Origin: Solwaraspora sp. WMMD792
GTDB taxonomy: Bacteria > Actinomycetota > Actinomycetes > Mycobacteriales > Micromonosporaceae
Length of the DNA: 64,000 nucleotides
Direction: 5' to 3'
Assembly: GCF_029626105.1 (NCBI RefSeq)
Contig: NZ_JARUBH010000009.1
Location: 4,588,001-4,652,000 of the forward strand
Shown here: piece after piece, positions 41,126 to 43,734 of the stretch
Numbering within the stretch: the first letter of the stretch is position 1
Layout of the letters: each line of letters starts with the position of its first letter
Notes under the pieces: generated by a model
Database searches by the model: none
Told to the model about the DNA's origin: nothing
The model's input: only the letters and a program-made list of their open reading frames with translations
Program-made: the position numbers and the translations under genes

Positions 41126-41716
41126 CTACCAACGCCACCGCCAGAACCGGTACTCGTACCGCACCGACAAGGTGCCGGCCGCGATACTGCCGGTGATGAC
41201 GACGTGCGGGGCCGTCGCGCCCGGCTCCGGCACCGCCGGCACCTTCATCCGCGCCGAGCCCGCCGACGTGGTCACCCCGTCGATGTTCGCGGTCGCCCCG
41301 CGCGGCAGCACGACGGTCGCCGACCCGGCCTGCGCAAACAACTCGATCTCCACCACCCGGTGGCCGAAGACGGCGTGCCGCATGTCCAGCAGCACCGAAC
41401 CCGCCTTCGCGAGCACCACGAGCCGCCGCGGCACTCTCCACCGACCGGTACGCCGCAACTGCCCCGCCTGGCTGCGCAACTCGACCACATCGGCGGCGGC
41501 GATCGGGGCGACCGGGTCGACCGCAGGCAGATCGGCGACGAAGGGTTCCACGTCGCCGAAGGTCCGCGACCGCAACACCGCGTCCACCCGGTCGGAGAAC
41601 TCGGCGAGCGTCAGTCGGCCCTCAGCGACGGCCGCGTTCAACCGGGCGACGACCGCTTCCCGGTCCGCATCGGACATCCGCAGTTCCCGCCGCGACGGCA
41701 CGACCTCGCCACTCAT
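41126..41716 (-). CDS. DUF1707 domain-containing protein
   Basis: A 196-residue protein. The N-terminal DUF1707 segment (about 12-65) reads RMSDADREAVVARLNAAVAE and LTLAEFSDRVDAVLRSRT, as is common in actinomycetes. The remaining part resembles the cell-wall-active antibiotic response C-terminal domain, a right-handed beta-helix (GSATVVLPRGATANIDGV). It has no signal or membrane helix. Often associated with cell-envelope stress, but the role is unproven. It ends close to LacI-like operator 3. Confidence 0.85.
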   Translation of the reverse strand: MSGEVVPSRRELRMSDADREAVVARLNAAVAEGRLTLAEFSDRVDAVLRSRTFGDVEPFVADLPAVDPVAPIAAADVVELRSQAGQLRRTGRWRVPRRLVVLAKAGSVLLDMRHAVFGHRVVEIELFAQAGSATVVLPRGATANIDGVTTSAGSARMKVPAVPEPGATAPHVVITGSIAAGTLSVRYEYRFWRWRW

Positions 41717-41800: not shown

Positions 41801-42880
41801 TCATTGCCGGATCGGCATCAGCAGCGAACAGCTGCGGTCGTCGTCAGGCAGTCGCACGGCCAACGGCCGGATCGGCCCGTCCAGGTCCAGCACCAACTGA
41901 CCGCCGCCGGCTGCCGCCACCGCCTGCAGCAGGAACTCCCGGTTCACCGCGACGTACCGATCCGGTGCGGCGCGCCAGGCCGCCTCGTCGACGCATTCGA
42001 CGGCGCCGTCGTCGGTCGCCGCCAGCACCGCGACCGGGTGGGTGACGCCGAGGTGTTCGCGTACCACCGCCGGGGCCCGGCCCGGCTCCAGCGCCCGTCG
42101 CAACTCGGTGGCGTCCACAGTGACCTGCCGTCGGCCCTCGGCGCCCCGGACCGGCAGCAACGGCCGGTAGTCGGGAAAGTCGTGGTCCAGCGGGTCGGTG
42201 GTGATCCGCCAGCCCGGGGCGCGGGCGTCAACGCCGTCCGGACCGAAGGCCAGTTCCGCTGTTGGGTTACGGTCGACCTGGCTACGTACGCCGGTCACGA
42301 AGCCGCCGGGCACCAGGACCGTCACCGCCGGGCCGTCGACCGCCGTCGGGACGAGTTCGGCGACCGCCATGCGGTAACGGTCGGTCGCGGCGAACCGTAC
42401 GGTGTCGGCGGAGACCTCGACGTGCACCCCGGCCAGGGCGGGAATCTCGGGGTCGGTGCCGACGGCGAACCGTACGGCGTCCAGCGCGTCGGCCAGGTCG
42501 GCGGCGTCGACGGTGACGCGGGTGGTGGTGGTCATGATCGTCCGATTCTCCTCGGCATCGAGCAGGGCATGGATGCGGGAGAGCTCCCGACGGGCATCGG
42601 CCAGCCCGTCCTGCAGCCGGCGCAGGTGCACGTCGAGCAGCCGTCGGGCCACCGTGACGTCGGGCAACGCCCGGACCGCCTCGGTGATCTCGACCAGCGG
42701 CAGGCCGACCCGGCGCAGCCCGGCCAGCAGCCGGGCGGCGCGCAGCTGACTCGCGGCGTACCACCGATAGCCGGTGTGCGGATCCACCGCAGCCGGCACC
42801 AGCACGCCAGCGGAGTCGTAGAACCGCAGCGCGCTGACGGTGAGCCCGCTGGCGCGGGCCGTCTCGCCGATGCTGTGCAT
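41801..42880 (-). CDS. MerR-type regulator fused to sliding-clamp (DnaN-like) domains
   Basis: A 359-residue protein. Residues 1-70 are a MerR winged helix (MHSIGETARASGLTVSALRF, then GYRWYAASQLRAARLLAGL), followed by a helical dimerisation segment to about 115. From about 122 the sequence matches two domains of the DNA polymerase III beta clamp: domain 2-like (VDAADLADALDAVRFAVGTD, FAATDRYRMAVAEL) and domain 3-like (VAVNREFLLQAVAAAGGGQ), ending SLLMPIRQ like the LLMPVRL terminus of true clamps. The ATG at 42880 has GGAGAG upstream; starts at 42898 and 42937 lack one. A clamp normally has three domains; here the first is replaced by the regulator. Role unknown. Confidence 0.88.
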   Translation of the reverse strand: MHSIGETARASGLTVSALRFYDSAGVLVPAAVDPHTGYRWYAASQLRAARLLAGLRRVGLPLVEITEAVRALPDVTVARRLLDVHLRRLQDGLADARRELSRIHALLDAEENRTIMTTTTRVTVDAADLADALDAVRFAVGTDPEIPALAGVHVEVSADTVRFAATDRYRMAVAELVPTAVDGPAVTVLVPGGFVTGVRSQVDRNPTAELAFGPDGVDARAPGWRITTDPLDHDFPDYRPLLPVRGAEGRRQVTVDATELRRALEPGRAPAVVREHLGVTHPVAVLAATDDGAVECVDEAAWRAAPDRYVAVNREFLLQAVAAAGGGQLVLDLDGPIRPLAVRLPDDDRSCSLLMPIRQ

Positions 42881-42924
42881 GTCGCTCTCCACGTCCATGA
42901 ACTCTGTGGCCTCGACCAGGTCGA

Positions 42925-42989
42925 GGGTCAAGGCCAACCGGGGGGCAATGCCGGCCGGGGGTCAAGGCCAGCCCGGGTCAAGGCCAGCC
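42925..42989. repeat. three 15-bp direct repeats upstream of MerR-clamp gene
   Basis: GGGTCAAGGCCARCC occurs at 42925-42939, 42959-42973 and 42975-42989. On the coding strand each contains CCTTGACC, which includes a -35-like TTGACC. They lie 45-110 bp upstream of the start and may be regulator binding sites. Confidence 0.8.
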
Positions 42990-43107
42990 GCGTACCGGAG
43001 CCGACGGGCCGGGCCAGCGGCGGGATGCCGGCCCGTGGCAGCATTGCAGTTCCGACCAGATCGATGTACGCGTCCAACGAGACCGACATGCCCCGCCGGG
43101 AGGCAGG

Positions 43108-43734
43108 ATGACCCCGCAGGCACCTCCGCCGCCCGCGATCGCCGGGCTGCCGCCGCTCGCCTGGCAGCACACACCGGTGGCGGCAGAGCATCACGCCGGT
43201 CGGCAGGCCCTGTCGCTCACCGCCGGTGCCGGCACCGACTGGTTCGTCGACCCGGTCGGCGAGTACCGCACCCACAACGCACCGGCGCTGCTGTTCGACT
43301 GCCCGGACGGCGAGTTCGCGCTCTCCGCCCGGGTCACGGCCGACTTCACGGCCGCGTTCGACGCCGGCGTGCTGTGCCTGCGTATCGACGAGGAACACTG
43401 GGCAAAGCTGTGCTTCGAGTATTCACCGCAGGGCCGGCCGATGGTGGTGACCGTGGTGACCAACGGCACCTCCGACGACGCCAACGCGGTCACCGTCGAA
43501 GCGTCCAGCGTCCACCTCCGGGTGCTGCGCAAAGGGTCGGCGTACGCGTTCCACTACTCACTCGACGGCTTCACCTGGCAGTTCGCCCGACTGTTCCAGC
43601 TGACCGATGCCGCCGACGCGCCGACCCGGGTCGGCTTCCTTTCCCAGTCGCCTACCGGTGACCGCTGCACCGCCACGTTCGAGCAGATCAGCCTGGTCGA
43701 CGTGGTCCCCGACGACCTACGCGGTGGCCAGTGA
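43108..43734 (+). CDS. DUF1349 family beta-sandwich protein
   Basis: A 208-residue cytosolic protein with a concanavalin-like beta-sandwich: LTAGAGTDWFVDPVGEYRTH, ALLFDCPDGEFALSARVTADF and LRIDEEHWAKLCFEYSPQGR are the family hallmarks. Start ATG with GGGAGGCAGG. It may bind carbohydrate, but no activity is known for intracellular members. Its stop overlaps the start of the next gene (GTGA), forming a two-gene operon divergent from the MerR-clamp gene. Confidence 0.88.
   Translation: MTPQAPPPPAIAGLPPLAWQHTPVAAEHHAGRQALSLTAGAGTDWFVDPVGEYRTHNAPALLFDCPDGEFALSARVTADFTAAFDAGVLCLRIDEEHWAKLCFEYSPQGRPMVVTVVTNGTSDDANAVTVEASSVHLRVLRKGSAYAFHYSLDGFTWQFARLFQLTDAADAPTRVGFLSQSPTGDRCTATFEQISLVDVVPDDLRGGQ

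Follow-up and report, generated by a model that had tools for sequence, protein, structure and literature searches.

A MerR-type regulator with sliding-clamp domains in actinobacteria, a possible sensor and trap for clamp-binding molecules

The window analysed here, a stretch of 64,000 nucleotides from Solwaraspora sp. WMMD792, contains a gene for a protein in which a MerR-type head is joined to domains of the DNA sliding clamp. The fusion had been proposed in a preliminary description of this DNA, and it is confirmed by Pfam, TIGR00663, AlphaFold2 and Foldseek. The features of the coding region are:

41801-42880, minus strand: MerR-clamp ORF from the ATG start of the preliminary description, 359 aa
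42668-42880, minus strand: MerR winged-helix DNA-binding domain, aa 1-71 (Pfam PF00376/PF13411)
42536-42658, minus strand: long helix of 41 residues, aa 75-115 (AlphaFold2 secondary structure)
42170-42523, minus strand: clamp domain II, aa 120-237 (PF02767, 3.2e-15, and the AlphaFold2 model)
41804-42130, minus strand: clamp domain III, aa 251-359 (TIGR00663 and a weak PF02768 match), ring-interface residues lost
41807-41824, minus strand: C-terminal LLMPIR, the pocket segment equivalent to E. coli 360-365 (residue conservation)

The PF00376 MerR match covers aa 3-41 (E 4.2e-12, over the cut-off) and the MerR_1 match aa 3-71, and this winged-helix domain shows good conservation across an alignment of 32 rows. 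The helix that follows is, in the model, presumably the coiled coil expected of a MerR dimer. DNA_pol3_beta_2 matches aa 124-237 with 56.9 bits against a cut-off of 27, and DNA_pol3_beta_3 (PF02768) matches aa 293-358 with 18.6 bits, under its cut-off of 27. The C-terminal region does match a DnaN profile – TIGR00663 aligns at aa 65-358 (E 2.5e-25, 89.2 bits), though under the equivalog cut-off of 137.65. Domain I of the clamp is absent, and in the Pfam matches and the AlphaFold2 model the MerR domain and the coil occupy its place. The protein is thus as first described, with a DNA-binding head instead of clamp domain I, two clamp domains and a clamp-like C-terminus, LLMPIRQ.

The AlphaFold2 model rests on an alignment of 32 sequences and is confident, with a mean pLDDT of 90.4 and a pTM of 0.73. 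When it was used as a Foldseek query, the matches listed were beta clamps (best E 5.8e-16, query TM about 0.5), superposed with an rmsd of 5-8 A over about 250-285 columns, and they include mycobacterial clamps with a natural product bound. Sequence matches in the PDB to BmrR, EcmrR and other MerR multidrug sensors reflect a homologous DNA-binding domain. The TipAS ligand domain (PF07739) was not among the Pfam matches up to E 1. The true dnaN of the host is a separate gene (G000:C9:5926987-5928117), and these two genes are the two places in the host genome matched by the central clamp-domain family; the clamp part is identical to the host's own DnaN at 54 of 228 aligned residues.

The MerR-clamp protein is an actinobacterial family. 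Near-full-length relatives are found in Micromonospora, Streptomyces, Kitasatospora, Blastococcus, Rhodococcus and Pseudonocardia, so the fusion is not a chance one. Thirty of 394 Actinomycetes genomes (the host's included) contain a match with an E-value of at most 1e-25, and the matches other than the host's own fall into two identity bands, 44-55% and 33-38%. Among 200 genomes of the host's family, a clear relative was found in 108 and a remote one in 4, leaving 88 without any, a division that we made by E-values and identities. Three of the 108 copies (G060, G105 and G198) are split, headless or in pieces. Two of these are among the seven genomes of the host genus – G060 (L016) is split into two frames, and G105 (L013) has neither the MerR head nor the own-promoter site – so the gene is dispensable. 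Six truncated, split, fragmentary or MerR-only sequences (L013, L016, L066, L070, L071 and L072) were left out of the family counts, and of the 59 retained at least two pairs look like one genome taken twice (L029/L039 and L032/L067). Eight plasmid records contain a match; the six that name the gene all call it a 'MerR family transcriptional regulator'. Among the matches listed in open-licence PubMed Central, no title or abstract start mentions a MerR-clamp fusion.

Clustering of flanking ORFs (the 40 largest groups) gave groups common within Micromonospora or within the host genus, and one cross-genus group, about 4 kb away, shared by two Kitasatospora loci and the host genus. A conserved neighbourhood gave no clue to function other than a TPR-like gene in Rhodococcus. 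The flanking genes at 41126-41716 and 43108-43734 encode DUF1707 and DUF1349 domains (Pfam), and by eye these do not recur beside the gene in other genera among the loci listed.

Comparison within the family indicates which parts of the clamp have been kept. Eighteen positions of the clamp's peptide-binding pocket, as given in the consulted part of a review (PMC11139829), average 3.59 bits of conservation against 2.04 over all 245 columns, which none of 20,000 random draws equalled. These statistics cover 49 of the 59 sequences, the ten missed by the search pattern being left out. The equivalents of Thr172, Arg176, Pro242, Met362 and Pro363 are invariant in all 49. Val247 is replaced by Leu throughout, Asn320 is Asn in 44 and Asp in five, and Arg365 is Arg in 43. 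At the ring-contact position Ile272 the residues are Ala (20), Val (10), a gap (8) and Thr (7), and at Leu273 they are Pro (27), Arg (8) and a gap (8), in a part of the alignment that is loose. The published ring-interface set is conserved no better than random (P 0.89), with three of its four positions usable and the same loose alignment.

By these comparisons the protein retains the docking site of the clamp and not its ring contacts. It is therefore not a working clamp, since the pocket is strongly conserved and the ring-closing positions are not, and a ring is unlikely given the missing domain I and the loss of ring contacts in domain III. The conservation of the pocket could partly reflect an inherited core. 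The retained residues suggest a pocket that could bind clamp-binding peptides.

The upstream region contains a conserved promoter. Its features, with the start of the gene, are:

41801-42892, minus strand: MerR-clamp gene from the GTG at 42892, a probable leaderless start, 363 aa
42901-42931, minus strand: predicted MerR-type promoter/operator, 31 bp (conserved position and sequence)
42925-42990, no strand: 17-bp tandem repeat (3.9 copies) that overlaps the -35 and extends upstream

MerR promoters carry the operator palindrome within a lengthened spacer of 19-20 bp. Here a -35 element TTGACC and a -10 element CAGAGT are separated by a 19-bp spacer with the palindrome CTCGACC-T-GGTCGAG, and both the spacer length and the palindrome are conserved across genera by sequence comparison. 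The GTG at 42892, which reads (M)ESDMHSIGE, is 8 nt past the -10. In relatives the distance from the -10 to a GTG or ATG is similar, which suggests a leaderless mRNA and a protein of 363 aa; the mRNA probably begins at the GTG. The sequence TTGAC(C/T)(C/T)T is found at a like place in 58 of 63 upstream regions. The five without it are those of three Rhodococcus, in which the site is about 475-480 nt upstream, and of two relatives that match in the MerR part only. At one Rhodococcus locus (L196) the site is followed by a TPR-like gene, and this gene and the start of the MerR-clamp gene overlap. In the remote band, a weaker site (scores 9.3-30.1) is found at the same distance in 8 of 15 loci, the pattern having missed the other seven; the start pattern used on this set missed 12 of 27 loci. 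From the placement of these sites, the MerR-clamp protein appears to control its own gene. A repeat like that of the host occurs in the upstream region of L009, as repeated TTGACCCCGGCTGG words.

There is also a predicted start within the gene, at the junction of coil and clamp:

42533-42535, minus strand: predicted internal ATG of a 244-aa clamp-only form (start codon and Shine-Dalgarno-like word)
42548-42553, minus strand: GAGGAG, the Shine-Dalgarno-like word, with a 12-nt gap to the internal ATG

The gap of 12 nt in the window compares with 5-9 nt in most relatives. A junction start behind a Shine-Dalgarno word is present in 49 of the 59 sequences (ATG in 38, GTG in eight, TTG in three) and missing in ten, including all three Rhodococcus. 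Counting only ATG and GTG, 46 of 59 have a junction start, against a mean of 16% and a maximum of 29% in other windows of the same genes. Synonymous shuffling, repeated 100 times, gave a mean of 33 of 59 and a maximum of 40; the amino acids thus explain part of this signal and not all of it. Paired forms of this kind are described in the consulted parts of PMC7762955 and PMC6078987 – TipA is made as TipAL and TipAS from two start codons, and AlbA has long and short forms, AlbAL and AlbAS.

In the 7.4 Mb host genome, no exact site other than that of the own promoter was found; relaxed patterns gave 16 matches against 7 for the control and 10 against 9, and those that were not full-length were taken as background, as were the many short ones among the matches listed in a profile search of the host genus. 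The one genome of that genus with another full-length site is G079, where it precedes a TPR-like gene. In the searched genomes of Streptomyces and Kitasatospora, every exact site is at the own promoter. Known variants of the own promoter escape the exact pattern (in 4 of 20 genomes in one set, and in G052 and G110 in another), so the number of second sites is a floor.

Across the 200 genomes of the host's family, a degenerate operator pattern was found in 106, and a reversed control pattern in none. At least one exact site is present in 102 of the 108 genomes with the gene, and 56 of these hold two or more. One site each is found in 3 of the 88 genomes without the gene, and one of the four genomes with a remote relative also has a site; these four sites score 10.5-22.7. 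Four genomes – G180 in genus group g4, G056 and G090 in g30, and G092 in g33 – have neither gene nor site, and their genus mates have both. The genome counts are not independent, because gene and sites share ancestry.

Eighty loci with a site were classified, 23 as the own promoter and 57 as non-self. The non-self sites are before TPR-like genes (18), MFS transporters (15), YunG-family genes (7), dnaN (6), other MerR genes (5) and, in six cases, unassigned sequence; these loci were picked from the matches listed, so the proportions are not a census. The family names of the targets rest on Pfam for five examples, and three of the seven YunG calls come from the second-best frame. A start codon lies 37-39 nt from the site, a leaderless-like arrangement, in 9 of 15 MFS, 6 of 7 YunG and 3 of 18 TPR-like cases. 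The five sites before other MerR genes are perhaps the operators of those genes themselves.

The second target met most often in the fetched loci is the small TPR-like family (L155, L183, L295 and 15 more); in two examples its proteins have no Pfam match over the cut-off. The YunG-family genes that follow an operator are at L156, L160, L189, L190, L158, L178 and L187, with PF24585 matched in one example. Operators resembling CTCCAG/CTGGAG, with the same spacing, occur at L174, L197, L292 and L301 before other MerR genes and unrelated small genes, which hints at a further regulon under a MerR protein. Most sites built as CTCCAG...CTGGAG have matrix scores under 25 and were set aside as the probable operators of another MerR protein, although scores in this range also occur at a few sites that look genuine.

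Nothing obvious connects the TPR-like and YunG targets with antibiotics. Together with the MFS transporters they account for 40 of the 57 fetched non-self sites, which is what might be expected of a multidrug or metabolite sensor of MerR type that has adopted the clamp fold to bind an unrelated ligand and has no functional tie to the replisome. Such a sensor would leave unexplained why the pocket residues are held well above the rest of the protein and why an operator is found at dnaN in the Micromonospora group, and we regard it as rather improbable.

Using a matrix trained on the own promoters only, the 1 kb upstream of dnaN was scanned in 81 genomes, among them all 37 genomes of the Micromonospora group (g4) in the 200-genome draw. 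In this group, 35 of the 36 genomes with the gene have a dnaN site, 688-704 bp upstream of dnaN. The sites score 17.4-48.2, and the best of 20 shuffles per sequence scored at most 14.9 and the opposite strand 13.5; the lowest dnaN-site scores (to 17.4) overlap the range of the sites set aside elsewhere. G003 has the gene and no dnaN site, and the lone genome of the group without the gene has no dnaN site. None was found in 44 genomes of other genera (31 with the gene), the host's included, where the best score was -7.9.

The dnaN operator adjoins oriC in this group. In six loci inspected, the site is 73-367 bp after an ORF with a DnaA-like end, and it is followed by a cluster of words resembling DnaA boxes. 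An ungapped comparison anchored on the site gave identities of 0.68-0.90 at positions 0 to 39, against 0.33-0.38 over the preceding 60 bp and 0.45-0.55 over the following 50 bp; with the best match as its anchor, this comparison is biased towards the site. An open frame 38 nt past the site in three dnaN loci was rejected as a gene, its codon bias not being coding-like. Taken with the sites described above, these positions indicate that in related bacteria the MerR-clamp protein probably controls the real clamp gene and transporters.

In the main rival to the reading that we prefer, the protein would be a sensor of the clamp's endogenous partners, its pocket binding their clamp-binding motifs or reporting replication stress, and it would then adjust dnaN and perhaps initiation at oriC. 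The kept pocket residues agree with this, as does the position of the operator, 688-704 bp upstream of dnaN and, in the six loci, between the dnaA-like ORF and the DnaA-box-like words. It would not explain why MFS transporters are targets or why the gene is patchily distributed (in 30 of 394 Actinomycetes genomes), and the 44 genomes of other genera have no dnaN site. We consider this reading unlikely, if still a serious one.

The preliminary description had suggested a recruitment platform – a DNA-bound half clamp that brings clamp-binding proteins to certain loci and so ties transcription to replication or repair. Its account of the domains stands, the MerR head and the retained pocket could serve such a role, and one genus group has a site beside oriC. 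The platform itself is very improbable: the ring contacts are lost, and the sites look like ordinary MerR-type promoters, in which the -10 is fixed, a start codon often follows closely and the genes are transporters and small genes. A predicted short form with no DNA-binding head would also make little sense. A ligand sensor and trap fits better than a polymerase recruiter, because the operators are of MerR type at few promoters and a short form is predicted.

Considering all of these lines together, the best explanation, which we hold at about even odds, is that the MerR-clamp protein is an autoregulated sensor and trap, like TipA and AlbA, for ligands of the clamp pocket, the likeliest candidates being clamp-directed peptide antibiotics of the griselimycin/mycoplanecin type. 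Its operator pattern and likely clamp-domain sensor suggest the detection of clamp-binding molecules. Transcription would begin at the own promoter, with the palindrome in its 19-bp spacer as at MerR-activated promoters, and yield a leaderless mRNA. A ligand entering the peptide pocket would reshape the dimer and turn this promoter on, and the internal ATG would give a clamp-only short form that sequesters the ligand, as TipAS and AlbAS do. In some relatives, operators before MFS transporters would raise efflux, and in Micromonospora the one upstream of dnaN would raise the supply of the target. In the host genome the protein itself would be the output, since only predicted autoregulation is visible there.

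Raised dnaN expression, export and sequestration would each answer a clamp-directed drug. Resistance to cyclohexyl-griselimycin is associated with amplification of dnaN-bearing segments, as reported in the consulted part of PMC8765428, and mypR and griR, the DnaN genes of two antibiotic pathways, have been proposed to act in self-resistance (PMC10817943, consulted part). Somewhat more tentatively than the sensor itself, the drug target may have become its own alarm and decoy – a piece of clamp that senses clamp blockers, with a short form that soaks up the drug and, in Micromonospora, dnaN raised beside oriC, a feedback from the occupancy of clamps to their supply and possibly to initiation. 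If true, this would show a way in which soil actinomycetes may detect and buffer antibiotics directed at the clamp, provide a ready-made biosensor domain for finding clamp-directed compounds, and offer a testable link of clamp occupancy, dnaN transcription and oriC in Micromonospora.

The protein has points in common with several known systems. With DnaN it shares domains II and III, the pocket residues and the C-terminal MP motif; unlike DnaN it has no domain I, has lost the ring contacts and falls below the NCBIfam DnaN cut-off. With BmrR, EcmrR and other MerR multidrug sensors it shares a homologous DNA-binding domain within a drug-sensing MerR architecture. To our knowledge none of these sensors has a short form. 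The C-terminal sensor of BmrR, GyrI-like in the portion of the source consulted, is unrelated to the clamp domains. GriR and MypR, in the consulted part of PMC10817943, are likewise extra clamp-fold proteins proposed to act against clamp-directed antibiotics, but they are DnaN genes in biosynthetic clusters and not transcription factors. The closest likeness is to TipA and AlbA, which have a MerR head, a coil, a ligand-binding C-terminus, autoregulation and, as described in the consulted parts of PMC7762955 and PMC6078987, a headless short form; the last two of these are predicted here. Their ligand domain is helical and of TipAS type, whereas the presumed ligand domain of the MerR-clamp protein is derived from the sliding clamp, itself a known antibiotic target.
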